The notes under the pieces were generated by a model that saw nothing but the letters and a program-made list of their open reading frames with translations, searched no databases and was not told where the DNA came from. A stretch of 64,000 nucleotides of DNA from Alphaproteobacteria bacterium (lineage in GTDB: Bacteria > Pseudomonadota > Alphaproteobacteria > Geminicoccales > Geminicoccaceae), in assembly GCA_027045875.1 (NCBI GenBank), contig JALUAG010000109.1, positions 1 through 64,000 on the forward strand, written 5' to 3'. The position numbers and the translations under genes are program-made. Position 1 is the first letter of the stretch, and each line of letters begins with the position of its first letter. Shown here one piece after another: positions 23,040 to 35,205 of the stretch.

Positions 23040-23136
23040 CCGGGGCGGCGGCCGTCCGCCTTGCTCTCGGCGGCCTCCGGGACTAGCTAGGATCGCAATG
23101 GCACGAAGGCCCGGGTGTCGTTTCGGGAGAGCGATC

Positions 23137-23901
23137 ATGCCGCTCGTGTGGGGACCCTGGAGCGCCAAGCGCTTCCGCCTCGACAGGATGAGCCTCGGGG
23201 ACCTGGTCAAGGCCTATTTCACCTACTATGCGATCCAGATCTACCTGCTGCTGGCGGCGGCGGCGGTGTTCCTGGCGGTGGCCTGGGCGGACGACGCCGG
23301 CGGGCCGATCCTCGCTGCCCTGCTCATGCTCGTGCTCTATCCGCTGGTCGAATACGGCGTGCACCGCTACATCCTCCATTCGCGGCTCCTCTACCGGAGT
23401 CCCTACACGGCCAAGCTGTGGAAGCGGATCCACTACGACCACCACCAGAACCCGCACGACCTCTCGGTACTGTTCGGCGCCCTCTACACCACGCTGCCGG
23501 TGATCGCCCTCGTCACCCTGCCCGTGGGCGGGCTGGTGGCCGGCAAGGCGGGAGCGGCCGCGGCCTTCGCCACCGGATGCGTGATCTTCTGCTTCTACGA
23601 GTTCGTCCACTGCGTCGAGCATCTGCCCTTCAAGCCGAAGTCGCGCTGGCTGCGGGAGGTCAAGCGCCGCCATCTCGCCCATCATTTCCACAACGAGCAG
23701 GGCAACTACGGCATCACCAGCAACCTCTGGGACCGCCTTTTCGGCACCTTCTACGATCGCGCGTCCGACTGGCCGAGGAGCGCCACCGCGTTCAACCTCG
23801 GCTATGCCGGCGAGGACCGCGAGCGCTATCCCTGGGTGGCGCGGATGTCGGCCGCGGACGAGGAGTTCGCCGAGGCGCGCCGTCGCCGTGCCAGTGCCTG
23901 A
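23137..23901 (+). CDS. Fatty acid hydroxylase-superfamily membrane enzyme, likely sphingolipid hydroxylase
   Basis: A 254-residue di-iron membrane oxygenase of the sterol desaturase/fatty acid hydroxylase superfamily. The His clusters that bind iron are all present: HRYILH near residue 75, HYDHH near 98, HCVEH near 158 and HLAHHFH near 180. The last block, with YGITSNLWDRLFGT, resembles eukaryotic ceramide fatty-acid 2-hydroxylases (FA2H/Scs7). At least three hydrophobic spans frame these. Start is the ATG at 23137 behind GGGAGA. It lies 18 bases before the ceramide synthase gene, so I infer that it hydroxylates the ceramide acyl chain or long-chain base. Family certain, substrate inferred. 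Confidence 0.82.
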   Translation: MPLVWGPWSAKRFRLDRMSLGDLVKAYFTYYAIQIYLLLAAAAVFLAVAWADDAGGPILAALLMLVLYPLVEYGVHRYILHSRLLYRSPYTAKLWKRIHYDHHQNPHDLSVLFGALYTTLPVIALVTLPVGGLVAGKAGAAAAFATGCVIFCFYEFVHCVEHLPFKPKSRWLREVKRRHLAHHFHNEQGNYGITSNLWDRLFGTFYDRASDWPRSATAFNLGYAGEDRERYPWVARMSAADEEFAEARRRRASA

Positions 23902-23919
23902 GAGGCCGTCTCCCGGCCG

Positions 23920-25059
23920 ATGAGCGATCTGCACGTCCGCCCCGTCGAGGACCGGCGCGATCTCCGCCGCTTCGTCACCATGCCGCGGCAGATCTACGCC
24001 GGCGATTCCCACTGGGTGGCACCGCTCACCTTCGAGCGGCTGCTGCATCTCGATGCGCGCCGGAACCCCTTTCTGCGCGGCATCGAGCTCCGCTACTGGC
24101 TGGCCTTTCGGGGCGACCGCTGCGTCGGGCGTATCAGCGCCCAGGTCAACCGCCGCCATCTCGAGCGCTACGACGACGCCACCGGCCATTTCGGTTTCCT
24201 CGAGGCCGAGGACGATCCGGAGGTGTTCGCGGCGCTCCTGGAAACCGCGGAGGCCGATCTCCGCGCGCGCGGCATGCGTCGCATCCAGGGGCCCTTCAAC
24301 CCCTCCATCAACGACGAATGCGGGCTCCTGGTCGAGGGGTTCGACACCGGGCCGAACATGATGATGGGGCACGCCCGTCCCTACTACCGGCCCCGCCTCG
24401 AGGCGCTCGGCTACCGCAAGGCGAAGGATCTCGTCGCCTACGATTTCGAGGTCCGGGGCTCCTGGCCGCCGCGCATCACACGGATGCTGGAGCGGGTGCG
24501 GAACAGCCGCGAGATCCGGGTGCGCCCGCTGGAGATGCGGCACTATCGCGAGGAGATCGCCACCATCTGCCGCATCTTCAACGACGCCTGGGCCGAAAAC
24601 TGGGGCTTCATCCCTTTCGGCGAGGAGGAGGCGCACTATCTGGCCCGCAGCATCCGGCCGCTGGTCGATGCCAACTGTTTCGCCATCGGCGAGGTGGCGG
24701 GCGAGCCGGTCGCCATGTGCGTGACCCTGCCCAATCTCAACGAGGCGATCCGCGGGCTCGACGGCCGGATCCTGCCCTTCGGCTGGGCGGTCCTCCTGTG
24801 GCGGCTCAAGGTCCGCGGCGTGAGGAGCTGGCGCATGCCCCTGATGGGCGTTTCGCGACGCTTTCACGGGACCCGGCGGGGCGCGGCGCTGGCGCTGCTG
24901 GTGATCGACGCCATGCGGAGCTACCATGCCCGTCGCGGTGTCCTGCGCGGCGAGCTCTCCTGGGTGCTCGAGGACAACCGCCCGGTCCGCGAACTGATCG
25001 AAGGGATCGGCGGCGTGCCCTACAAGACCTACCGGATCTTCGAAAAAAGCCTGACATGA
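23920..25059 (+). CDS. bcerS: GNAT-like bacterial ceramide synthase
   Basis: A 379-residue acyltransferase-like protein related to the family that includes Caulobacter bacterial ceramide synthase, which N-acylates a sphingoid base. N-terminal blocks DSHWVAPL, NPFLRG and GFLEAEDD and the NDECGLLV and YRPRLEALGY segments are family features; a second GNAT-like half starts near residue 190 with IFNDAWAENWGF. It is unrelated to eukaryotic ceramide synthases. The assignment is strengthened by spt, acpR, cerR and aasR in the same locus. Its stop overlaps the next start (ATGA). The name by homology is likely, though I cannot measure identity here. Confidence 0.8.
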   Translation: MSDLHVRPVEDRRDLRRFVTMPRQIYAGDSHWVAPLTFERLLHLDARRNPFLRGIELRYWLAFRGDRCVGRISAQVNRRHLERYDDATGHFGFLEAEDDPEVFAALLETAEADLRARGMRRIQGPFNPSINDECGLLVEGFDTGPNMMMGHARPYYRPRLEALGYRKAKDLVAYDFEVRGSWPPRITRMLERVRNSREIRVRPLEMRHYREEIATICRIFNDAWAENWGFIPFGEEEAHYLARSIRPLVDANCFAIGEVAGEPVAMCVTLPNLNEAIRGLDGRILPFGWAVLLWRLKVRGVRSWRMPLMGVSRRFHGTRRGAALALLVIDAMRSYHARRGVLRGELSWVLEDNRPVRELIEGIGGVPYKTYRIFEKSLT

Positions 25060-25850
25060 CGGCCGAAACTCCCGCCCTGGTCCTCGCGGGCGATCGCCGC
25101 GGCGAGGCCGATCCCGTGGCCGTCCGGGCCGGAGTGCGCCACAAATGTCTGGCGCCGGTGGCGGGGACGCCGATGCTGTGCCGGGTGGTCGGTACCCTGG
25201 CCTCGATGCCGCGCATCGGCACCATCCACGTCGCCCTGTCCGATCCGGCGATCCTCGACCGCACCGCCTGTCTCCGCGAGGTGGTCCGCACGGGGCGCCT
25301 GCGCGCGGCACCCGCCGCCGCCAGCGTCGCGCGGTCGGTGGCCGACCTGTTCGCCGAGACCGGCCCGCCGCTGCTCGTGACCACCGCCGACCATCCGCTG
25401 CTGACGGTGGCGATGGTGGAAGGCTTCCTCGATCTCGCGGACCGCGAAGCCGCCGATCTGGTCGCCGGCCTCGTCGCCGAGGAGACGATCCGCAAACGGC
25501 TGCCGGACACGCGGCGCACCTTCCTGCGCTTCCGCGACCGCGCCTTTTCCGGCGCCAACCTGTTCCTGCTGGCGGGGCCGGGAGCCGCCGCCATCCTCGC
25601 CTTCTGGGAGCGGGTGGAGCGGGATCGCAAGCGCCCCTGGCGCATCGCGCGGGCGCTCGGTCCGGGCCTCCTGCTCGCCTATCTGCTGCGGCGGCTCACC
25701 CTGGATGCGGCGATGGAACGGGCCTCCCGCCGCATCGGCGGCCGGGCGCGGGCGGTGGTGCTGCCCTTCGCCGAGGCCGCCGTCGATGTCGACAGGCCGG
25801 CCGATCTCGAGCTCGTGGAGCGGCTCCTCGCCCGCCGGGAGGCAGCGTGA
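25056..25850 (+). CDS. Nucleotidyltransferase-like protein (GT-A fold) of the sphingolipid operon
   Basis: A 264-residue protein with the NTP-transferase layout of MobA/IspD-type enzymes: an N-terminal LVLAGDRRG loop, then HKCLAPVAGTPML at about residues 28-40, the usual KPL-GKPM position, and TTADHPLL near 108 as the likely metal-binding Asp loop. Such proteins join a nucleotide to a phosphorylated small molecule. In a ceramide operon it may prepare an activated head group, for example a CDP- or NDP-linked donor, but this is inference. It overlaps both neighbours by four bases (ATGA and GTGA). The glycine-rich loop is a little degenerate. Confidence 0.72.
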   Translation: MTAETPALVLAGDRRGEADPVAVRAGVRHKCLAPVAGTPMLCRVVGTLASMPRIGTIHVALSDPAILDRTACLREVVRTGRLRAAPAAASVARSVADLFAETGPPLLVTTADHPLLTVAMVEGFLDLADREAADLVAGLVAEETIRKRLPDTRRTFLRFRDRAFSGANLFLLAGPGAAAILAFWERVERDRKRPWRIARALGPGLLLAYLLRRLTLDAAMERASRRIGGRARAVVLPFAEAAVDVDRPADLELVERLLARREAA

Positions 25851-26800
25851 GCGGTTCCGCCACCCTGCGCTTCGCGCATCTGAGCGACGTCCATCTGGCG
25901 CCGATGCCGGCGGCGCCGCCCCGACTGCTCCTGAACAAGCGGATCCTGGGCTGGCTGTCCTGGAACCTGAAGCGTCACCGGCTGCACCGCCGCGAGATCC
26001 TGGACGCCCTGGTCGCCGACCTGCGCGCGCAGGCGCCCGACCATCTCCTGGTGACGGGCGATCTCGTCAACATCTCCCTGCCCGAGGAGTACGAGCGGGC
26101 GGCGGCGTGGCTGGCGGCCCTTGGCCCGCCCCGGCAGGTGAGCCTCGTGCCCGGCAACCACGACGCCTACGTGGCGGGTGCGGCCGATCGGGGATGGCGG
26201 CACTGGGCGGCGTGGATGCGCGGCGACGCGGCGGCGGAACCGGTGTTCCCCTATCTGCGCCGCCGCGGGTTCGTCGCCATCCTCGGCCTCTCCACCGCGG
26301 TGCCGAGCCCGCCCGGCTACGCCTCGGGGCGACTGGGCGATGCGCAGCTCCGGGCGCTCGAGGCGGCGCTCGTGGCGCTCGCCGCGGAAGGGCGCTTCCG
26401 CATCGTCCTCCTCCACCATCCGGCGCTGCCGGTGAGCCGGCCGCGAAAGGCGCTCGAGGACCGCGAGGCCTTCCGTGCGGTGATCCGGAGGGCGGGGGCC
26501 GAGCTCGTCCTCTCCGGCCACGAGCATCGCTTCCACGAGGGGTTCCTGGCGGGGCCGCGGGGACCGGTCCCCGCCTTCGTCGTGCCCTCCGCCTCGCACG
26601 GTGGCGACCTCGCGGAGAAGCGGAGCGGCTATCTCCTGTTCGACATCGAGCGGCAGGCCGGGGGCTGGCGGCTCGGCGCCCGGCTCCGGCGCCTCGTCGA
26701 GGGGGAGCTCGCGTTCGCGGACGGTGCGACGCGCGAACTGCGGCTGCCGCGGCCGGAGGCGGGGGTCCCGGCCGGCCATCTCCTGGGTGGCGTCCCGTGA
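25847..26800 (+). CDS. Calcineurin-like metallophosphoesterase of the sphingolipid operon
   Basis: A 317-residue phosphoesterase with the full metal-binding set: SDVH near residue 14, TGDLVN near 66, PGNHD near 103, a LHHP motif near 191 and SGHEHR near 224. The family removes phosphate from phosphomonoesters or cleaves phosphodiesters, including lipid-linked ones (LpxH, UDP-diacylglucosamine hydrolase, is a relative). There is no signal peptide, so it is cytosolic or peripheral. The GTG start overlaps the preceding stop, and its own stop overlaps the GTG of the LptF-like gene. I infer a role in head-group maturation or recycling. Confidence 0.83.
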   Translation: MSGSATLRFAHLSDVHLAPMPAAPPRLLLNKRILGWLSWNLKRHRLHRREILDALVADLRAQAPDHLLVTGDLVNISLPEEYERAAAWLAALGPPRQVSLVPGNHDAYVAGAADRGWRHWAAWMRGDAAAEPVFPYLRRRGFVAILGLSTAVPSPPGYASGRLGDAQLRALEAALVALAAEGRFRIVLLHHPALPVSRPRKALEDREAFRAVIRRAGAELVLSGHEHRFHEGFLAGPRGPVPAFVVPSASHGGDLAEKRSGYLLFDIERQAGGWRLGARLRRLVEGELAFADGATRELRLPRPEAGVPAGHLLGGVP

Positions 26801-28002
26801 CCGTGCTCAGCCGCTACGTTCTCGTCCAGGTGCTGCGGCCCATGGGGGCCATCATCCTGGTCGCCCTCGTCGCCCTCCTCGCCGAGCGCGCCATCCGGGT
26901 GGTCAATCTGGTGGTCGGCTGGCGGGGCAGCGTGTTCGCCGTCTTCGAGATGCTGGGATACCTCGTCCCCCACTACATGGGCTTCGCCCTTCCGGCCGCC
27001 CTCTTCCTCGGCGTGTTCATGGCCACCGCGCGGATGTCGCGGGAAGGCGAGCTGGACGCCCTGCAGGCGGGCGGCGTCGGCATCTGGCGCTACACGCGCC
27101 CGCTGGTCGGCCTGTCGTTCCTCCTGATCGCCCTCCACATGGCGCTCGTCGGCTACCTCCAGCCCTACAGCCGCTACGCCTACCGTGCCGCGGTGTTCGC
27201 CCTCACCAACGTGTCCTTCCAGACCCTGCTCGAACCCGGTGTCTTCACCACCCTCGGCCGGACCACCTATCTCGTGCGCGAACTGGACGACGGGAAGGAG
27301 CGGTTCGAGGCGCTGTTCCTCTATTCCGAGGGGGAGACCGGCGACGCGGTGACCATTTCCGCGGTGGCGGGGCGGATCGTGGTCGAGGGGGCCACCCGTC
27401 CCGTGCTCCTGCAACTCAAGAACGGCGTCCAGCAGGTGGTGCCCAGCACCACCGACGAGGACCGCAGCCAGCGGCTGCCCTCCGCCCTCACCATGCGCTT
27501 TCGCGAGTTCACCACCGATCTGCGGGGCAGCGAGCCGATCGGTTTCCGCCCGCGCGGCCAGGACGAGCGGGAACTGACCCTGGACGAACTCTTCTCCCTG
27601 CGCGGCCTGTCGCGGCCGGGCATCCGGGCGGCGGAGATCGCGGCCGAGCTCGACGGCCGGCTCGTCCGCTCGCTGTCGATGCCGTTCCTTCCGCTGCTCG
27701 CGGTGCCCCTCGCGCTCGGCCGCAGGCGCGGCCGCCGCTCCTACGGCTTCATCGTCGGCGTTCTGCTGCTGGTCGGCTACAGCCAGGTGCTGCAGACGGG
27801 CGAATCGCTGGCCGACGACGGGCTGGCCCCCACGCTGACCACGCTGTGGCTGCCCTTCGCGGCCTTCGCGCTCCTGAGCGTGCTGCTGTTCCTGCGCCGT
27901 GCCACCCGGGTACCGGATCCGGCCCGCGGTGCGGTGCTGGATCGCGGCTTCGAGCGCGTCCTCGCCTGGCTGCAGCGGCGCCAGCAGGCCGGGCGCGCAT
28001 GA
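26797..28002 (+). CDS. LptF-like permease of the sphingolipid operon
   Basis: A 401-residue LptF/LptG-family protein (YjgP/YjgQ). Three transmembrane helices lie in the N-terminal half (about 13-36, 60-85 and 105-125), then a periplasmic beta-jellyroll domain near 135-285 and three C-terminal helices. The family block REGELDALQAGGV near 85 and QPYSRYAYRA near 125 are present. The canonical pair moves lipopolysaccharide with LptB2 and LptC. Here the gene sits inside a ceramide operon and overlaps its partner by four bases, so export of sphingolipid is attractive. I cannot exclude that this is the cell's main lptF. Confidence 0.82.
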   Translation: MTVLSRYVLVQVLRPMGAIILVALVALLAERAIRVVNLVVGWRGSVFAVFEMLGYLVPHYMGFALPAALFLGVFMATARMSREGELDALQAGGVGIWRYTRPLVGLSFLLIALHMALVGYLQPYSRYAYRAAVFALTNVSFQTLLEPGVFTTLGRTTYLVRELDDGKERFEALFLYSEGETGDAVTISAVAGRIVVEGATRPVLLQLKNGVQQVVPSTTDEDRSQRLPSALTMRFREFTTDLRGSEPIGFRPRGQDERELTLDELFSLRGLSRPGIRAAEIAAELDGRLVRSLSMPFLPLLAVPLALGRRRGRRSYGFIVGVLLLVGYSQVLQTGESLADDGLAPTLTTLWLPFAAFALLSVLLFLRRATRVPDPARGAVLDRGFERVLAWLQRRQQAGRA

Positions 28003-29102
28003 TGACGGTGATGAACCGGTACCTGATGCGGCATTTCGCCCTGCGTCTCGCGGTGGTGATCTTCGCCGTCGCCGCCTTCGGCCTGCTGTTCGACCTCATC
28101 GACGCCAGCGACGATCTGCTCAAGCGGGACACCAACCCCGCGCTGGCGATGCTCGCCTACGGCGCGCTCCGCCTGCCCTCGCTCGTGCGCGAGATGCTGC
28201 CGCTGTCGGCGCTGCTCGCCGGTCTGTTCGCGGTGGCCGATCTGCTGCGCCACCGGGAGATCGTGGTGATGTGGGGCAGCGGCCTGTCCTCGGGCGGACT
28301 GGCCCTGCGCATGCTGCCGCTGGCGGTGCTCCTCGTCGGGCTCAAGTTCGCCAACGACGAACTGCTGGTGCCGCCGACGACGGCCGTGCTGCGCGACTGG
28401 GAGGTGGGCGATTTCAAGCAGGCCCGCTTCGGTGCCGACCGCAACTACGTCTGGATCCAGAGCGGGGAGGACGTGATCCGTCTCGATGCCGATCCCGCCC
28501 AGCGGCGCGAGCTCCGGAACGTGGTGGTGTTCCGTCGGGCCGCGGACGGCACCCTGGTGGAGCGCATCGACGCCGCACGCGGGCGGCTGGTGGGAAACGG
28601 CGTCGAGCTCGAGGAGGTGATCCGCCGCCCGGTGGGCGGCCGCCAGACCCGGCGCCTGGAGCGGCTCTTCCTGCCGGCGCGCATCGATCTCGACGCGGTG
28701 GCGCTGATGGCGCGGCCGGCGGCCGAACTCGCCTACGCCGATCTCCTGCGGGTGGTCGAGGCCGAGGGCTACGGCATGCGGCCGGTGCACGCGCACCGGA
28801 CCTGGCTGCACTATCGTCTGGCCGGCGGCCTCGTTCCGGCGATGATGCTGATCCTGCCCTTCGGCTTCCTGCGCAGTTTCCGCCGCGTCGGCGGCATCAC
28901 GCCGCTGTTCGTCAAGGGGCTGGCGACCGGCTTCGCCTTCCAGATCTTCGGCGGCTTCGTGCTGGCGCTGGGGGAGGGGGGCTTCGTCGCCCCGGTGCCG
29001 GCCGCCTGGGGGCCGCCGCTGCTGCTGACCGCGGTCGTCGTCGGCATGCTGGTGAGCGCCGAGATGCCCGGCCGCCGCAGGCCGCTGCCGGAGGCGGCGT
29101 AG
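27999..29102 (+). CDS. LptG-like permease of the sphingolipid operon
   Basis: A 367-residue LptF/LptG-family partner of the preceding gene. Helices lie near residues 12-33, 57-80 and 98-115; a periplasmic domain follows to about 265, then three helices. Typical blocks are SLVREMLPLSALLAGL and REIVVMWGSGLS, matching the LptG coupling-helix region that docks on LptB. The start ATG at 27999 overlaps the LptF-like stop (ATGA). No lptB, lptC or lptA gene is in the window, so the ATPase would have to be supplied from elsewhere. The lipid kinase gene starts five bases after the stop. Confidence 0.82.
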   Translation: MMTVMNRYLMRHFALRLAVVIFAVAAFGLLFDLIDASDDLLKRDTNPALAMLAYGALRLPSLVREMLPLSALLAGLFAVADLLRHREIVVMWGSGLSSGGLALRMLPLAVLLVGLKFANDELLVPPTTAVLRDWEVGDFKQARFGADRNYVWIQSGEDVIRLDADPAQRRELRNVVVFRRAADGTLVERIDAARGRLVGNGVELEEVIRRPVGGRQTRRLERLFLPARIDLDAVALMARPAAELAYADLLRVVEAEGYGMRPVHAHRTWLHYRLAGGLVPAMMLILPFGFLRSFRRVGGITPLFVKGLATGFAFQIFGGFVLALGEGGFVAPVPAAWGPPLLLTAVVVGMLVSAEMPGRRRPLPEAA

Positions 29103-29107
29103 GGCGG

Positions 29108-30058
29108 ATGCGCATCGGCATTCTCAGCAACGCGCGCAGCGGACGCAATCGGCGCCGCATCCGCGAGCTCGACCGGGCGCTCGACGGCCGTCCCGAGGTG
29201 CTCCATCTGCGCATCGAGGAGGGTACCGATTCCGTCGAGCTGCTGCGGGAGATGGCGGCCCGCGGGATCGAGCTGCTGGTGATCAGCGGCGGCGACGGCA
29301 CGGTCAGCCGGACCCTCACCGCGATGTTCGCGCACCGCATCTGGGACCCGCCGCCGCCGGTGGCCATCCTGCCGCGGGGCACCGCCAACATGACTGCCGC
29401 CGACATCGGGCTGCGCAATCCGGGGCCGCGCGGGCTCGCCACCCTGCTGGCGGCGGTGGATGCCGGCGAGCTCGACCGCCATCTGATCGCCCGTCCGATC
29501 CTGAAGGTGCGCTGGGCCGCCGACCGGCCGGCGGTGCGCGGCATGTTCTTCGGCGCGGCGGGTATCGTCGACGCCATCCGCATCTGTACCGGCTCGATCC
29601 ACAGTCGCGGGCTGCGCGGCGAGCTCGCCCACCTTCTGACCCTCCTCTGGCTGCTCTCGGTGGCCACCGTCCGCGGTCCGGAGGTGGCGGGGATCGGCTG
29701 CGAGCGGATGCGGGTGGTGTGCGATCGCGAGCAGGAGAGCGAGGCCGCCCGCCTGCTCCTGCTGGCGACCACTCTCGACCGACTGGTGATGCGCTCGCGC
29801 CCGTTCTGGAACATCGGCGGCCGGCCGATCCGCTACACGAGCATCGCCTGTCCGCCGCCGAAACTGCTGCGGCACGCGCCGCGGGTGCTCTACGGCGGTC
29901 GCCGGCCGCTGCCTCCCGAGTACGAGAGCTGCGGCGTGGATCGCCTCGACATCCGTCCGGTTTCGCGCTTCACGGTGGACGGGGAGATCTACCGGCCGGC
30001 CCCGGATTTCCCGGTCACCGTGACCGCAGAGGAGCGGCTCCGCTTTGTCCGCCTCTGA
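29108..30058 (+). CDS. Diacylglycerol/ceramide kinase family protein
   Basis: A 316-residue lipid kinase of the DAGK_cat (YegS/LCB5) family. The nucleotide loop ISGGDGTVSR is near residue 64, followed by ILPRGTANM near 93, and the C-terminal beta-sandwich ends with FTVDGEIY. In Caulobacter a member of this family, CpgB, phosphorylates ceramide as the first step to ceramide phosphoglycerate; its position here between permeases and spt makes the same role likely. Diacylglycerol or sphingoid base are alternatives. It lies five bases behind the LptG-like gene and overlaps the next gene by 14 bases. Confidence 0.83.
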   Translation: MRIGILSNARSGRNRRRIRELDRALDGRPEVLHLRIEEGTDSVELLREMAARGIELLVISGGDGTVSRTLTAMFAHRIWDPPPPVAILPRGTANMTAADIGLRNPGPRGLATLLAAVDAGELDRHLIARPILKVRWAADRPAVRGMFFGAAGIVDAIRICTGSIHSRGLRGELAHLLTLLWLLSVATVRGPEVAGIGCERMRVVCDREQESEAARLLLLATTLDRLVMRSRPFWNIGGRPIRYTSIACPPPKLLRHAPRVLYGGRRPLPPEYESCGVDRLDIRPVSRFTVDGEIYRPAPDFPVTVTAEERLRFVRL

Positions 30059-30950
30059 GATCCCGCCCGCCATCGGCGCGATCGTCGACGCCGAACTCGC
30101 GGCACCGGTGCCCGCCGCGGTCCGCGCGGTGGCGGATGCGGCCCGGGCGCGTCACGGTGCGGCCGTGCTGGCGGTGCTGTTCTACGGCAGCTGCTACCGC
30201 GCGGGATGCGAGGAGGGTCTCGTCGATCTCTATCTCCTCGTCGATCGCTACCGCAACGCGCACCGGAACCCGCTGGCGGCCTGCGCCAACGCCCTCCTGC
30301 CGCCCAACGTCTACTACGTGGACGGCCACCACGAGGGGCGGAAGGTGCGGGCGAAATACGCGGTCGTCGACCTCGCCGGGTTCGGGCGTCTCACCGGCCC
30401 CCGCTGCTTCAATCCCTATTTCTGGGCCCGCTTCGCCCAGCCCACGGGGCTCGCCTGGGTGCGCGACGAAACCGTCCGCATGCGCGTCCGCGAGGCGCTG
30501 GCGCGGGCGATCGTCACCACCTACCGGGCGGCGCGGCCGCTCGTCGCCGGAACGGACGATCCGCTGGCGGTGTGGCGGCGGGCCTTTCTCGAAAGCTACG
30601 GCACCGAGCTCAGGGCCGAGAAGCCCGAGCGGGCGCGACAGATCGTCGAGCATTTCGCCGACCGCTACCGCCGCCTGTCGCGCCTTCTGGAAGCCGCGCC
30701 GCCCCCCCGCGTCGACGCCGCGGCCTGCCGGCGGCGCTGGCGGCTGCGCCGCTTCCAGGGCAAGCTCCTGTCGGTGATGCGGCTCGTGAAGGCGGCCTTC
30801 ACCTTCCAGGGCGGCGCCGAATATCTGGCCTGGAAGATCGAACGCCATTCGGGCGTGCCGCTGGCCCTCACTCCCTGGCAGAAGCGGCATCCGGTGCTCG
30901 CTTCGGCCTCGCTGGCGTGGCGCCTCTACCGCCGGCGCATCATCCGCTGA
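30045..30950 (+). CDS. Unrecognised 301-residue protein of the sphingolipid operon
   Basis: I do not recognise this family with confidence. The protein starts with a TTG at 30045, inside the end of the kinase gene, 11 bases after AGGAG. An early block VLFYGSCYR near residue 46 followed by VDLYLLVDRY near 63 faintly recalls the GS-x-D of nucleotidyltransferases, but the DxD is incomplete. The central part is mixed alpha/beta; the C-terminal 90 residues are rich in Arg/Lys and aromatic residues and may bind the membrane. There is no signal peptide. By position I suspect a late step in making the anionic ceramide head group. It converges with spt, five bases apart. Confidence 0.7.
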   Translation: MSASEIPPAIGAIVDAELAAPVPAAVRAVADAARARHGAAVLAVLFYGSCYRAGCEEGLVDLYLLVDRYRNAHRNPLAACANALLPPNVYYVDGHHEGRKVRAKYAVVDLAGFGRLTGPRCFNPYFWARFAQPTGLAWVRDETVRMRVREALARAIVTTYRAARPLVAGTDDPLAVWRRAFLESYGTELRAEKPERARQIVEHFADRYRRLSRLLEAAPPPRVDAAACRRRWRLRRFQGKLLSVMRLVKAAFTFQGGAEYLAWKIERHSGVPLALTPWQKRHPVLASASLAWRLYRRRIIR

Positions 30951-30954
30951 GCCC

Positions 30955-32154
30955 TCAGGCGGGCACCCGCAGATCGAGTTCGTCGGCCACCCGGGCGAAG
31001 CGGGCGCAGGCCTCGTCGATCTGATCCGAGCTGTGGGCGGCGGAGACGCTGCAGCGCAGCAGACAGAGCCCGCCCGGCGTGCCCGGCGGCAGGGCCAGAT
31101 TGACGTAGAGGCCGTTGTCGAGCAGCCGGTTCCAGGCGGCGACGGCGCTGCGCTCGTCGGCGAGGCGGACCGCCACCACCGGGCTCGCCGGCGCGCAGAG
31201 GACGAGGCCGAGGGCCGAAAGGCCCTCGTGCAGGCGCCGGGCGTTGTCCCACAGCCGCCGGCGCAGGCCCGGATCCTCGGCGATGCGCTGCAGCGCGACC
31301 CGGGTCGAGGCCATGGTGGCGGGGCTGGGCGAGGCGGTAAACATGTAGGGCCGCGAGCAGAAGCGCAGATGGTCGAAGGCGGGGTGGTCGGAAGCGCCGA
31401 AGCCGCCCACCGCGCCCAGGCTCTTGCTGAAGGTGCCGGCCACGAAGTCGACCTCCCGATCGACGCCCTGGGCCTCGGCGACGCCGCGGCCGTGCTCGCC
31501 GAAGACCCCGAAGGAATGGGCCTCGTCGACGAACAGCCACGCCCCGTGCCGTTTCTTCACCTCGACGAAGGCGTCGATCGGCGCCACGTCGCCGAGCATG
31601 CTGTAGAGGCCCTCGACGACGATCAGCTTGCATTCGCCCTTGCCCGCGAGTCGCGTGAGGCGGCGGTCGAGATCCTCGGGATCGTTGTGGCGGAAGCGGA
31701 CCACCGTGGCCCCGGAGAGCCGGCAGCCGTCGTAGATGGAGGCGTGGGAATCGGAATCGAGGAGGATGACGTCGCGCGGTCCGGCGAGACCCACCAGCAT
31801 GCCGAGATTGGCCTGATAGCCGGTGGTGAAGACGATGCAGGAACGGCGGTCGAGAAAGCGCGCGAAGGCCTCCTCGAGCTCGCGATGGAGGCCGTAGGTG
31901 CCGTTGGCGATGCGCGAGCCCGTGGTGCCGGTACCCAAGGTGCGGGCCGCCTCGGCCGCGGCTTCGATGCAGGCCGGGTCGAAGGTCAGCCCGAGATAGT
32001 TGTTGGTGCCGAGCAGAATGGTCTCGCGTCCGCGCACCACGGCGAGGGTCGGCGACAGTACCTCGTCGAGGCGGACGGCGAAGGGATCGACGCCGAGCCG
32101 CAGAAGCTCCTCGTGGCGCGCCGCCAGGGCCGAATGCTTGGCGAGAATGTCCAT
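30955..32154 (-). CDS. spt: Serine palmitoyltransferase
   Basis: A 399-residue PLP enzyme of the alpha-oxoamine synthase family, condensing serine with an acyl thioester to 3-ketosphinganine, the first committed sphingolipid step. The catalytic lysine is about residue 243 in GTFSKSLGAVGG; FVDEAHSFGVFG near 208 holds the cofactor-pairing Asp and His. The ending of the gene and the start of acpR overlap in the TGATG/ATGA manner at 32154, so carrier protein and enzyme are coupled. Relatives KBL and BioF are less likely because of the acpR, cerR and aasR neighbours, which match the Caulobacter ceramide locus. Confidence 0.9.
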   Translation of the reverse strand: MDILAKHSALAARHEELLRLGVDPFAVRLDEVLSPTLAVVRGRETILLGTNNYLGLTFDPACIEAAAEAARTLGTGTTGSRIANGTYGLHRELEEAFARFLDRRSCIVFTTGYQANLGMLVGLAGPRDVILLDSDSHASIYDGCRLSGATVVRFRHNDPEDLDRRLTRLAGKGECKLIVVEGLYSMLGDVAPIDAFVEVKKRHGAWLFVDEAHSFGVFGEHGRGVAEAQGVDREVDFVAGTFSKSLGAVGGFGASDHPAFDHLRFCSRPYMFTASPSPATMASTRVALQRIAEDPGLRRRLWDNARRLHEGLSALGLVLCAPASPVVAVRLADERSAVAAWNRLLDNGLYVNLALPPGTPGGLCLLRCSVSAAHSSDQIDEACARFARVADELDLRVPA

Positions 32155-32408
32155 CAGTCGGAGCGCCCCTCCAGTTGCTGGCGAACCAGTTCTACCAGAT
32201 CCCCGACGGTGCGTAAGTCGGCGACGAGGTTGATCGGGATATCGATGTCGAACCGGTCCTCGATCTCCATGATGAGATCCATCGCCGCCACCGAATCGAT
32301 GGCGAGATCGGCACCGAGGTCGGTTCCGGCGCTCACCGGGCGTCCCTCCTGATTGTATTTCTCGAGCAGCTGGAGGACCTGCTCGAAGACACGATCACCT
32401 GCCGTCAC
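32154..32408 (-). CDS. acpR: Acyl carrier protein of the ceramide pathway
   Basis: An 84-residue acyl carrier protein. The phosphopantetheine-bearing serine is in LAIDSVAAMDL near residue 52, with Val in place of the Leu of standard AcpP. Acidic helices and the length are normal. Adjacent to spt, cerR and the acyl-ACP ligase, it corresponds to the specialised carrier (AcpR) shown genetically to be needed for ceramide synthesis in Caulobacter, and would present the acyl chain to serine palmitoyltransferase. The housekeeping acpP is expected elsewhere. Confidence 0.9.
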   Translation of the reverse strand: MTAGDRVFEQVLQLLEKYNQEGRPVSAGTDLGADLAIDSVAAMDLIMEIEDRFDIDIPINLVADLRTVGDLVELVRQQLEGRSD

Positions 32409-32459
32409 CTCCGCACTCCCGCACGCGCGTCTCCCGCCGGAGCACCCGTTCGGCGCCGG

Positions 32460-33392
32460 CTACAGCCAGCCGGCGGCCCGGTACCAGGCGAGGGTCCTGC
32501 CGATGCCTTCCGCGAAGTCCACGAGCGGCCGCCAGCCGGCGACCGTCTCCAGGCCCTCGGGCCGGCACAGCCAGTCACTGTGATAGAACTCGCCGAGCTT
32601 GTCGACGGGCAAGAGGGGTGCCGCGCCCCTGATACGGGCGATCAGCTCCGAAGTCGAGGCCAGCACCTGCCCGGCGGCGCGCGGCAGCAGCACGAGCCGG
32701 ACCGGCCGGCCGGTATGCGCGCCGGCGATGGTCGCGAGCTCCCGCCAGCTGTAGCCGCCGGGTCGGCCGTCGTCGGGCTCGAGGAGGAGACCCGGAGGAA
32801 ACGGGGCCTCGCACAGGTGCGCCAGCAGGGCCGCCAGATCCTCGACGAAGATCAGCGAGAAGCGGGCCTCGCGGTTGGCGGGCATGATCAGGCGACCGCG
32901 GGCGAGGCCGCGGAAGATCTCGAGGGTGGCACGATCGCCCGGCCCGTAGACCGCGGGCGGCCGCACGATGGCGATCTCCATCCCGCCGGCGGCGGCCCGC
33001 AGCTCCTCCTCCGCGCGGGCCTTGCTCCAGGCATAGGCCGAGACCTCGGGTGCGCGGGCCGCCAGCGAGGAGACCAGCAGGAAACGGCGGACACCGGCCC
33101 GCGCCGCCGCGCGGGCCAGACGGGCGGTGGCGAGAGCGTTCACCGCCTCGAAGGTCCGCCGGTCGGGGGCCCGGATGGCGCCCGCCAGATGGACCACCAC
33201 CTCGCGGTCGGCGACGAGCTCCCCGAGTGCGCTCTCGCTGTCGAGCGAACCGCGCAGGACGGTCGCGCCGCTGCGTGCGAGGGCGGGATCCGGTCGCCGC
33301 AGCAGCAGCCGCAGGTCCGCCCCGCCCGCGAGTGCGGTCACGAGATGGCGGCCGATGAAGCCGGTGGCCCCGGTGATGGCGACGCGCCGCAT
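32460..33392 (-). CDS. cerR: NAD(P)-dependent epimerase-like ceramide reductase
   Basis: A 310-residue extended short-chain dehydrogenase. The nucleotide loop ITGATGFIG is at residues 5-13, and Tyr and Lys of the active site are in YAWSK near 140. Start is the ATG at 33392 behind GGGGAAGG; the frame runs on upstream without similarity. In Caulobacter CerR reduces the 3-keto group in the ceramide pathway; the placement between aasR and acpR fits that role. It belongs to the epimerase family rather than the classical 3-ketosphinganine reductases of eukaryotes. The final lipid stereochemistry cannot be read from sequence. Confidence 0.86.
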   Translation of the reverse strand: MRRVAITGATGFIGRHLVTALAGGADLRLLLRRPDPALARSGATVLRGSLDSESALGELVADREVVVHLAGAIRAPDRRTFEAVNALATARLARAAARAGVRRFLLVSSLAARAPEVSAYAWSKARAEEELRAAAGGMEIAIVRPPAVYGPGDRATLEIFRGLARGRLIMPANREARFSLIFVEDLAALLAHLCEAPFPPGLLLEPDDGRPGGYSWRELATIAGAHTGRPVRLVLLPRAAGQVLASTSELIARIRGAAPLLPVDKLGEFYHSDWLCRPEGLETVAGWRPLVDFAEGIGRTLAWYRAAGWL

Positions 33393-33438
33393 GCCGGTCC
33401 TTCCCCGATCGGGCGTGCCGCGGACGCGGCCGAGGGGA

Positions 33439-35205
33439 TCATGCCGCAGGGGCGAGCTCCGGCCCCGAGGCCTCCGCGAGGTCGCGCAGATCGCCGGCCA
33501 GATACTTGGCCCGCGCCGCGGCACGGCTGAGCTTGCCGGAGGTGGTGTAGGTGAGGCTGCGCGGGGGCGCCAGCACCACCTCGCAGTCGACCCCGGCGAC
33601 GCGGGACAGGACGGCCCGGATCTCGCGGCGGAAACGTTCCTGATCCGCCTTCTTGGCGAGCCGGCACTCGACCACCACCACCACCCGCTCGCCGTCCTCC
33701 TCGTCGGGCGCGGAAAAGGCGGCGACGTCGCCCGAGCGCACGCCGGGGATGTGCTCCACCGCCCATTCCAGGTCCTGGGGCCAGATGTTGCGGCCGCCGA
33801 GGATGATGAGATCCTTCGAGCGCCCGGTCACCACCAGCTCGCCGTCGACCGTGTACCCCATGTCGCCGGTCTCCAGCCAGCCGTCGGCGGTCAGGATCTC
33901 GGCCGAGGCCCGGGGATCGCGGAAGTAACCGGCCATCAGGCTCGGACCCTTGATGCGCACGCGGCCGATACGGCGGTCCGGCAGCGGCCGGCCGGCATCG
34001 TCGCGGATCTCCAGCCGGTAACCCGGCATCGGTCGGCCGCAGAAGACGAAGCGCCGGGCCGGGCGCCGATCCCCTTCGGCCAGGGCCAGGGCCAGCCGGT
34101 CCCGTTCGAGGGTGTCGCCGCGGGCCACGTGATCGACCCGGAGGCCCCGGCCCAGCGGGGCGAAGGTCACCGCCAGCGTGGCCTCGGCGAGACCGTAGCT
34201 GGCGAGGAAGGCGCGCGGATCGAAGCGGGCCGGCGCGAAGGTCTCGGCGAAGCGCAGGAGCGCGCTCTCGCGGATCATCTCGCCGCCGACGCCGGCCACC
34301 CGCCAGGCCCGCAGGTCGTAGCGGTCGACGCCGTTGTTGCCGGCGGCCCGCCGGGCGGCCAGCTCGTAGCCGAAGGTGGGGCTGAAGGAGATGGTCCCCC
34401 GCCGCTCGGAGAGGAGCTTGAGCCAGACCAGCGGCCGCCGGGCGAAGGCGGTGGTCTCCAGATAGTCGACGGTGATCTGGCTCATCACCGGTGTCAGGCA
34501 GCAGCCGACGAGGCCCATGTCGTGGTAGAGCGGCAGCCAGGAGACGCAGCGATCCTCGGGCCGCAGGGCGAGACCGTGGGCGGCGATGGCATGGGCGTTG
34601 GCGGCGATCGCCCGCTGGGTGACCAGCACGCCGCGGGGGAAGCTGGTGCTGCCCGAGGAGTACTGGATGTAGCAGGGTTCGGCGGCACCGAAGGGGGCGA
34701 AGGGACGGGCGCTCGGCGGCAGGGCCATGAGTTCGTCGACGGCGCAGACCTCGCGCACGGCGGTGCCGGCGGCCGCCTCCCGCAGGGTGGCGAGCAGCCC
34801 GTGGGAGGCGATCGCAAGATGGGCGTCGGCCGCCTTGAGCATGCCGTGGAGCCGCTCGACATAGGCCCGCCGGCCGCCGAAGTTGACCGCCAGCGGCAGC
34901 GGCACCGGGATCAGACCGGCGTATTGGCAGGCGAAGAAGGCGATCACGAAGTCGGGGCGGGTCTCGGCGATGACCGCCACCCGGTCGCCGCGCGCGACAC
35001 CCGCCCGCGGCAGGCGCTCGGCGAGCCGCCGGGCGCGTTCCCGCAGCTCGGCATAGGGGAGCACGGCCACGAGCTCCCCCCGCGGGGAGTGGAAGTTGAA
35101 GCCCGTCTCACCCCGGGCGGCGTAGTCGAGACCGTCCAGAAGCGTATCGAAACCGTCGACGCGAAAGGGCAGTGATCTGTTCGTCGTCGGCGTCGGATCG
35201 GTCAT
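33439..35205 (-). CDS. aasR: Acyl-ACP synthetase / fatty acyl-AMP ligase-like
   Basis: A 588-residue adenylate-forming enzyme. The P-loop motif YSSGSTSFPRG lies near residue 178, followed by the family core and, near 455, TGDMGY and VTGRSKDLIILGGRNIWPQDLE-type sequence, a pattern closer to fatty acyl-AMP ligases than to ordinary CoA ligases. It would activate a fatty acid and load it on AcpR, supplying acyl-ACP to Spt, as proposed for Caulobacter AasR. Its 5' side faces a 547-base regulatory spacer, making it the first gene of the aasR-cerR-acpR-spt operon. The start is well placed: a GGGGAGA element precedes the ATG. Confidence 0.87.
   Translation of the reverse strand: MTDPTPTTNRSLPFRVDGFDTLLDGLDYAARGETGFNFHSPRGELVAVLPYAELRERARRLAERLPRAGVARGDRVAVIAETRPDFVIAFFACQYAGLIPVPLPLAVNFGGRRAYVERLHGMLKAADAHLAIASHGLLATLREAAAGTAVREVCAVDELMALPPSARPFAPFGAAEPCYIQYSSGSTSFPRGVLVTQRAIAANAHAIAAHGLALRPEDRCVSWLPLYHDMGLVGCCLTPVMSQITVDYLETTAFARRPLVWLKLLSERRGTISFSPTFGYELAARRAAGNNGVDRYDLRAWRVAGVGGEMIRESALLRFAETFAPARFDPRAFLASYGLAEATLAVTFAPLGRGLRVDHVARGDTLERDRLALALAEGDRRPARRFVFCGRPMPGYRLEIRDDAGRPLPDRRIGRVRIKGPSLMAGYFRDPRASAEILTADGWLETGDMGYTVDGELVVTGRSKDLIILGGRNIWPQDLEWAVEHIPGVRSGDVAAFSAPDEEDGERVVVVVECRLAKKADQERFRREIRAVLSRVAGVDCEVVLAPPRSLTYTTSGKLSRAAARAKYLAGDLRDLAEASGPELAPAA

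Follow-up and report, generated by a model that had tools for sequence, protein, structure and literature searches.

A compact predicted sphingolipid locus in an alphaproteobacterium carries the only LptF/LptG pair of a genome without matched lipid A genes

The window analyzed here is a 64,000-nucleotide stretch of DNA from an Alphaproteobacteria bacterium (assembly GCA_027045875.1, contig JALUAG010000109.1). Between its positions 23137 and 35205 lies a locus of 12 genes that combines a predicted ceramide pathway (aasR, cerR, acpR, spt, and cerS) with genes for a hydroxylase, a nucleotidyltransferase (ntp), a metallophosphoesterase (mpe), a lipid kinase, a previously unrecognized protein (g8), and LptF and LptG, permeases of the type used in lipopolysaccharide (LPS) export. 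Our sequence comparisons indicate, with a probability of about two in three, that the product of this locus is a phosphosphingolipid and that the locus also provides the permeases for its export, so that LptF and LptG (LptF2G2) would serve a sphingolipid in a bacterium that seems to have no lipid A pathway. The most telling fact lies outside the window: the genome combines the absence of any Lpx match with a single LptFG pair.

Genome searches returned no match for LpxC, LpxB, or LpxD in this genome, which is 99.93% complete and assembled in 110 contigs; the controls, E. coli and Caulobacter, were positive for all three. A relative assembled as a single contig (G131) likewise has no match for LpxC or LpxB. 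The bacterium seems to be without LPS. The genome has two PF03739 matches, the same number as the window, so that no LptF/LptG pair exists besides that of the locus: lptF (26797-28002, plus strand, PF03739 over its full length) and lptG (27999-29102, plus strand, PF03739). LptD is present, with two matches, one of which starts at base 17 of contig C74.

The same pattern extends across a class sample of 190 genomes (G000-G189). Searches for g8 found 22 of the 190 with the single sequence and 22 with a profile, and removal of one weak row from each left the same 21 genomes. The removed rows were G063 in the single-sequence search (E 7e-6 over 119 residues, not recovered by the profile) and G029 in the profile search (E 7.7e-4). 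All 21 have spt above the curated cut-off, as do 25 of the 190 overall. Thirteen of the 21 have no LpxC, and 12 of those 13 also have no LpxB; the LpxC-less and LpxB-less genomes were partly identified by elimination from the sample (14 and 7, respectively), and the sums agree. Among the eight genomes with both g8 and LpxC, seven hold four PF03739 copies and one holds five, whereas four copies occur in only one of the 148 genomes with LpxC and no g8. Two LptFG pairs are thus associated with g8 among LpxC genomes in 8/8 versus 1/148 cases (Fisher 1e-12; this and all other p-values ignore shared ancestry). The single genome of the latter group, G022, is LpxC-positive with four LptF/G copies and no spt over the cut-off. 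In the g8-positive genomes without LpxC, exactly two PF03739 copies were found in 12 of 13, and none in G071, which is 82% complete. All 12 have one LptF and one LptG within ∼14 kb of g8, so these must be the two copies of each genome. LptD was matched in all 13.

In phylogenetic trees of 38 LptF and 37 LptG rows, 22 sphingolipid-type copies stand apart from the other 16 and 15, respectively, with support of 100/100 in both; the pair of the window belongs to the sphingolipid-type clade. Nineteen of the 22 lie near g8, L144 lies beside spt, and L149 (in G145) lies near neither; the L129 copy is on a contig with a CpgA-like gene, and its g8 is on a separate 3-kb contig. Within this clade, copies from LpxC-less and LpxC-bearing genomes are intermixed, and for 6 of the 16 LPS-type LptF copies, the genome of origin has a sphingolipid-type copy as well. 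The trees contain long branches at L148 (both trees) and L033 (LptG), and their LPS-less group includes G058, which has an LpxB match. In the LpxC-less genomes, the LptFG adjoining g8 score as sphingolipid type on our LptF and LptG profiles in 13 named or metagenome-assembled genome (MAG) loci. Because these profiles were seeded with most of the locus copies, independent support is limited to the unseeded rows (L129, L144, L148, L149, and L154) and to the trees. The LptF/G of five non-alphaproteobacterial loci score low, so the sphingolipid-type clade is alphaproteobacterial. The family of Aquibaculum illustrates the split: G028, with LpxC and no g8, has LPS-type LptF and LptG, and the Aquibaculum genome G159, with g8 and no LpxC, has the sphingolipid type only. 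Together, copy counts and trees suggest that the LptFG of our locus is most likely a branch of the Lpt exporter devoted to sphingolipid. Most simply, LptF2G2 would be all that was retained of LptFG in lineages from which lipid A was lost.

Several observations weigh against sphingolipid export as we propose it. Sphingolipid-type LptFG occurs without g8 in G012 and in G145, where it lies ∼315 kb from spt; thus, the cargo need not be a phosphosphingolipid. G066, a complete genome of 5.4 Mb, has aasR-cerR-acpR-spt, cerS, and mpe (L146, G066:C1:1500000-1519900), with no match for LpxC, LpxB, LptFG, LptD, LptC, or g8 and no kinase in the region. It is apparently an LPS-free and Lpt-free ceramide maker, and so Lpt does not necessarily accompany ceramide. 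LpxC is present in L061, a Geminicoccaceae MAG that shares the compact operon, which means that the compact form alone is no mark of LPS loss, and G058 combines the lack of LpxC with a weaker LpxB match. LptC (PF06835), a weakly conserved family, is unmatched in our genome, in its family-mate G131, and in G058. Finally, the orthology to Caulobacter proteins on which the pathway draws is based on gene order and family. LptC was also considered as a marker of cargo and dropped: PF06835 is present as one copy in most matching genomes and in all eight with g8 and LpxC, with no doubling, and our genome has none.

The sphingolipid-type pairs of G012 and G145 would also fit an unlikely alternative, in which LptF and LptG carry some other cargo, such as a phospholipid or a capsule or glycolipid anchor, and adjoin sphingolipid genes for no other reason than a shared role in the outer membrane. 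However, the second pair accompanies g8 in 8/8 LpxC-positive genomes, and the G012 pair itself adjoins spt. In G079, ceramide genes and LpxC are found together with a single LptFG pair; taken with G066, this indicates that the extra pair tracks the genes for decorated lipids and not ceramide as such. Among 24 genomes without LpxC and LpxB, LptFG together with LptD occurs in 13/15 with spt versus 1/9 without (p 5e-4), a contrast that is weak because the nine spt-less genomes are small (seven of 0.6-1.4 Mb and two of 1.6-1.7 Mb, with completeness of 79-100%). The two-pair result is unaffected by this. G027 has five LptFG pieces and no LpxB match.

The identity of g8 (30045-30950, plus strand, TTG start) helps to define the presumed cargo. 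A search with the A1 profile against PDB sequences gave a single weak nucleotidyltransferase match, so that fold comparison was needed to place this protein. A structure model (pLDDT 89.3) has as its top match a bacterial Tam41 bound to CTP-Mg (7ecd; Z 17.4 over 221 residues, 16% identity), followed by mitochondrial Tam41 (6ig4; Z 14.2), and the next unrelated entry reaches only 7.3. Foldseek also ranked Tam41 first (E 6e-6). The Pfam Tam41 family, PF09139, matches 2 of 20 aligned g8-family proteins (best E 9.8e-7) and leaves the g8 of the window unmatched. Residues invariant in the alignment of g8 with 19 relatives include Y47-G48-S49, D61, and K104. The Caulobacter protein CC_1161 is reported to carry a CDP-diacylglycerol-synthase domain, which agrees with the Tam41 fold of g8; in the same paper, a nucleotide-activated ceramide is floated as a possibility and not shown (PMC11324152). 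We consider g8 probably the counterpart of CpgC and, judging from the fold, probably a CTP:ceramide-1-phosphate cytidylyltransferase, which may make CDP-ceramide.

Which head group follows is suggested by genes found in other loci. CpgA-like (CDP-alcohol transferase, PF01066) and CpgD-like (PF12804) families, so named from family and place, were recovered from the gaps of those loci and made into profiles A2 and A3. Neither gene is in our locus, and neither profile matches this genome, A2 at E<=1e-3 (10 of 34 first-look candidates scored) and A3 at E<=1e-20 (13 of 13 candidates scored). At E<1e-90, both profiles pick out one and the same set of 12 genomes among the 21 with g8, and no other genome in the sample of 190; the remaining nine with g8, ours among them, have neither. 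CpgA and CpgD occur together or not at all and thus behave as one optional module. In Caulobacter, CpgB (the kinase) and CpgC are required for CPG (PMC11324152); the kinase and CpgC are assigned to the first phosphoglycerate and CpgA and CpgD to the second (PMC11324152, PMC12275187). With CpgA and CpgD absent, CPG2 (ceramide di-phosphoglycerate) is an unlikely product, and CPG or another lipid with a single head group is more likely. A full CPG2 locus was set aside, since genome searches found neither CpgA nor CpgD. It is quite unlikely that this is nonetheless a plain CPG2 locus of the Caulobacter type, with unrelated enzymes taking the two steps, for example ntp for CpgD and a housekeeping CDP-alcohol transferase for CpgA. 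The compact locus does retain ntp and mpe besides the kinase and g8, and the counterparts of ntp and mpe are linked to CPG2 in Caulobacter (PMC11324152). The strict sharing of CpgA and CpgD by 12 genomes and their absence from nine looks, however, like gain or loss of one module. Fourteen loci from 13 genomes (L029, L034, L040, L051, L057, L060, L067, L070, L072, L074, L079, L093, L108, and L110) have two CpgA-like CDP-alcohol transferases, which suggests two head-group condensations there.

Lipid A status also varies within a second set of 40 genomes, which was chosen by hand and overlaps the class sample. LpxC was found in 16 of the 40, including Pelagibius, Azospirillum, Azotobacter, and L061. 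Those without an LpxC match include Fodinicurvata, Marinimicrococcus, Arboricoccus, Dongia, Sphingomonas edaphi, Iodidimonas, and an uncultured Kordiimonas. Cultured strains that combine the compact locus with no LpxC match include Marinimicrococcus flavescens, Fodinicurvata fenggangensis, and Aquibaculum arenosum (G159). Divergent from the operon and next to it, Aquibaculum and Fodinicurvata, both LpxC-less, encode a protein that might acylate the sphingolipid (L028:17577-18554, L048:1769-2746, and L050:1655-2740); it clusters with a lipid A acyltransferase (PF03279, a scan made for the L126 member only). That our bacterium instead makes LPS from divergent or unassembled Lpx genes, with LptFG being an ordinary LPS exporter relocated beside sphingolipid genes, is very improbable. 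The retained LptD and the 110 contigs are compatible with it, yet LpxC, LpxB, and LpxD are all unmatched at 99.93% completeness, the single-contig relative also has neither LpxC nor LpxB, and the pair groups with the sphingolipid-type clade and not with LPS-type pairs. The relocated exporter was set aside on these trees.

In the pathway that we propose, whose order of steps comes from the Caulobacter literature, aasR would load a fatty acid onto acpR, spt would join the charged acyl group with serine, and N-acylation by cerS followed by reduction by cerR would yield ceramide. The amide-linked acyl chain is the probable substrate of the Scs7-like hydroxylase. The kinase would then convert ceramide to ceramide-1-phosphate, which the Tam41-fold g8 could turn into CDP-ceramide with CTP, and placing a small head group onto CDP-ceramide would give a lipid with a single head group. 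LptF2G2, with Lpt parts encoded elsewhere (LptD, which is present, and LptA, LptB, and LptC, which are assumed), would pass this lipid to the outer membrane. We infer every activity, every substrate, and the transport itself. A broader idea, to which we give somewhat less than an even chance, is that, where Alphaproteobacteria are free of LPS, the entire Lpt bridge now serves sphingolipid export alone: LPS-type LptFG would have been lost with lipid A, and LptF2G2 kept to feed LptD, with a cargo made via CDP-ceramide. If so, LptF2G2 would be a cargo-selecting gate that separates sphingolipid from LPS in species making both.

The earlier note on this DNA held that the locus would be a complete system, covering every stage between activation of the acyl chain and delivery to the surface. 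That reading goes too far: the locus holds only two Lpt permeases, LptD is encoded elsewhere, CpgA and CpgD were not found, and LptA, LptB, LptC, and a flippase are not among its 12 genes. Its more modest claim, that genes for hydroxylation, head group, and export are linked to a ceramide core, is upheld by family scans and by co-occurrence with spt, the check that it had named, which held in all 21 g8-positive genomes. Candidate flippases occur in other loci. Eight of them (L037, L038, L082, L101, L102, L114, L121, and L127) encode a membrane protein family resembling Wzx/MATE (PF01943, from a scan of L101 only), and 13, including L127, encode an ABC transporter family in which a pair of MsbA-like domains was recognized (from a scan of L070 only).

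The layout is as the earlier note had it, two operons with all 12 open reading frames intact in place, and the neighborhood is conserved in other genomes. On the plus strand, the gene order is hydroxylase, cerS, ntp, mpe, lptF, lptG, kinase, g8, with no gap larger than 18 bases; the minus-strand operon consists of aasR, cerR, acpR, and spt. The two converge tail to tail, and their ends are 4 bases apart. The 4-base overlaps noted earlier are exact at cerS/ntp, ntp/mpe, mpe/lptF, and lptF/lptG, and the remaining plus-strand junctions are an 18-base spacing (hydroxylase/cerS), a 5-base spacing (lptG/kinase), and a 14-base overlap (kinase/g8). A promoter and terminator scan found no consensus sigma-70 promoter or terminator in the locus, so the term operon is based on spacing and conservation. 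The earlier gene names agree with Pfam and NCBIfam scans except for cerS and g8, neither of which has a match there at E<=0.1.

On the plus strand, the fatty acid hydroxylase (23137-23901, PF04116 at 86 bits, with further ATG codons at 23098 and 23188) resembles Scs7, a yeast protein: its sole PDB matches at E<=0.01 are the SCS7 ceramide very-long-chain fatty acid hydroxylase structures 4zr1 and 4zr0 (best E 2.8e-9). The cerS gene (23920-25059) encodes a putative bacterial ceramide synthase, named from its fold and conserved place. Its structure model (pLDDT 88.9) matches tandem GNATs (best Z 23.9 over 305 residues), a fold that fits an N-acyltransferase, and it adjoins ntp in most loci holding both, as CC_1154 and CC_1153 are adjacent in Caulobacter (PMC11324152). 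The ntp product (25056-25850) is a MobA-like NTP transferase (PF12804, 36 bits) with weak matches to CofC and CMP-KDO synthetase far under the cut-off and a match to 2dpw, hypothetical protein TTHA0179, at E 1e-22. It is followed by the calcineurin-like metallophosphoesterase mpe (25847-26800, PF00149 at 61 bits). The lipid kinase (29108-30058, PF00781 at 56 bits), a probable ceramide kinase, matches YegS (E 1.7e-6), adjoins g8 in most loci, and contains GGDG, the motif named for CpgB (PMC10331486). By family and gene order, ntp, mpe, the kinase, and g8 are probably the counterparts of CC_1153 (CofC-like), CC_1158, CpgB, and CpgC. On the minus strand lie spt, for serine palmitoyltransferase (30955-32154, NF047599 at 621 bits, cut-off 500), the acyl carrier protein gene acpR (32154-32408, PF00550 at 42.5 bits, for which we chose a GTG start), cerR, for an NAD-dependent epimerase-like ceramide reductase (32460-33392, PF01370 at 82.6 bits, start also chosen by us), which sits between acpR and aasR, and aasR itself, for a fatty acyl-AMP/ACP ligase (33439-35205, NF006624 at 777 bits, cut-off 600).

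Regions taken around g8 in other genomes hold at least 8 of the 12 genes in 15 of 20 cases, at ∼22-69% identity; of the other five, two hold seven genes and three, on contigs ending nearby, hold one to four. The grouping is thus not due to chance, and chance clustering was set aside. A scan of a public genome collection found at least 588 encoding stretches, of which the best 80 were kept. Titles among these 80 include Geminicoccaceae, Fodinicurvata, Dongia, Kordiimonas, Sphingomonas, and Azotobacter, as well as Nitrospirales, Desulfobacterota, and Marinimicrobia MAGs. Among the matches listed, the named locus nearest to ours in summed match score is that of Marinimicrococcus flavescens (Geminicoccaceae). 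The unbroken order from hydroxylase to g8, with gaps <=251 bases, recurs in Aquibaculum, Fodinicurvata, Marinimicrococcus, Arboricoccus, and a further four genomes; for two of these four, L061 and L065, the hydroxylase was not found. Two Pelagibius genomes and a Kiloniellaceae MAG share the order with CpgA- and CpgD-like genes inserted. The 53-locus set is used descriptively only, since it contains duplicate genomes (L028/L048, L029/L108, and L032/L081). Kinase-g8 pairs also occur in Nitrospirales/Nitrospirota, Deltaproteobacteria, and Marinimicrobia MAGs (L051, L057, L058, L079, L089, L099, L107, and L126), some with cerS, ntp, and hydroxylase. In five gammaproteobacterial loci (L086, L094, L109, L111, and L124), the gene directly after g8 encodes a member of a single protein family (PF06258 Mito_fiss_Elm1, from a scan of L109 only).

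This locus gives leverage on the question of how sphingolipids of bacteria are carried to the outer membrane: according to the available text of PMC11087976, no flippase or transporter had been identified for them. The locus may show a route by which such lipids reach the cell surface without LPS. Bacteria that lack LPS genes and keep one LptFG pair, inside a sphingolipid locus, offer a natural test, since the Lpt cargo there should not be LPS. The paralog signature could serve to predict the cargo of each LptFG, and the same pattern leads one to expect sphingolipids in Geminicoccaceae, Rhodovibrionaceae, and similar families, whereas the available text of a survey of Alphaproteobacteria from 2020 described them as apparently restricted to Sphingomonadales (PMC7179689). 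In the literature that we searched, we found neither the pairing of LPS-gene loss with retention of only sphingolipid-type LptFG nor the optional CpgA/CpgD module. The gene set and the idea of transport by LptC2/F2/G2 have been published for Caulobacter, where transport was suggested without a test (PMC11324152).

It is useful to compare the locus with known systems. With the LptB2FGC-A-DE lipopolysaccharide exporter it shares full-length LptF/LptG domains and an LptD in the genome; it differs in that LpxC, LpxB, and LpxD are unmatched and in that its LptF/G fall in a separate clade. With the CDP-diacylglycerol synthase Tam41, g8 shares the fold, whereas its identity is only 16%, its family lies mostly outside PF09139, and its gene is linked to a ceramide-kinase-like gene. 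The Azotobacter vinelandii cluster is named in PMC11324152, and the A. beijerinckii locus (L115) resembles ours in cerR, aasR, cerS-ntp, LptF/G, and kinase-g8. It differs in having CpgA- and CpgD-like genes in the locus and LpxC in the genome, and its LptF/G match the alphaproteobacterial profiles only with low scores (88 and 169). The closest parallel is Caulobacter crescentus, in which ceramide, head-group, and LptC2/F2/G2 genes were already described in one region (PMC11324152), so that the arrangement is less new than first thought. Our locus is a compact variant of that phosphosphingolipid region, CC_1152-CC_1168, which brings together five ceramide genes, CpgB, the CDP-diacylglycerol-synthase-like CpgC, a CofC-like nucleotidyltransferase, a phosphoesterase, and LptF2/LptG2 (PMC11324152, PMC12275187, PMC10331486), all with probable counterparts here. 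By comparison, the genes here form two compact convergent operons without CpgA, CpgD, LptC2, or a flippase, and a PF04116 Scs7-like hydroxylase stands in the operon, whereas the Caulobacter hydroxylase is reported to be the DesA-family CC_0202, encoded elsewhere (PMC11324152). Finally, LpxC, LpxB, and LpxD are matched in Caulobacter and not here, and the sphingolipid-type LptFG, a second pair there, is the only pair of this genome.

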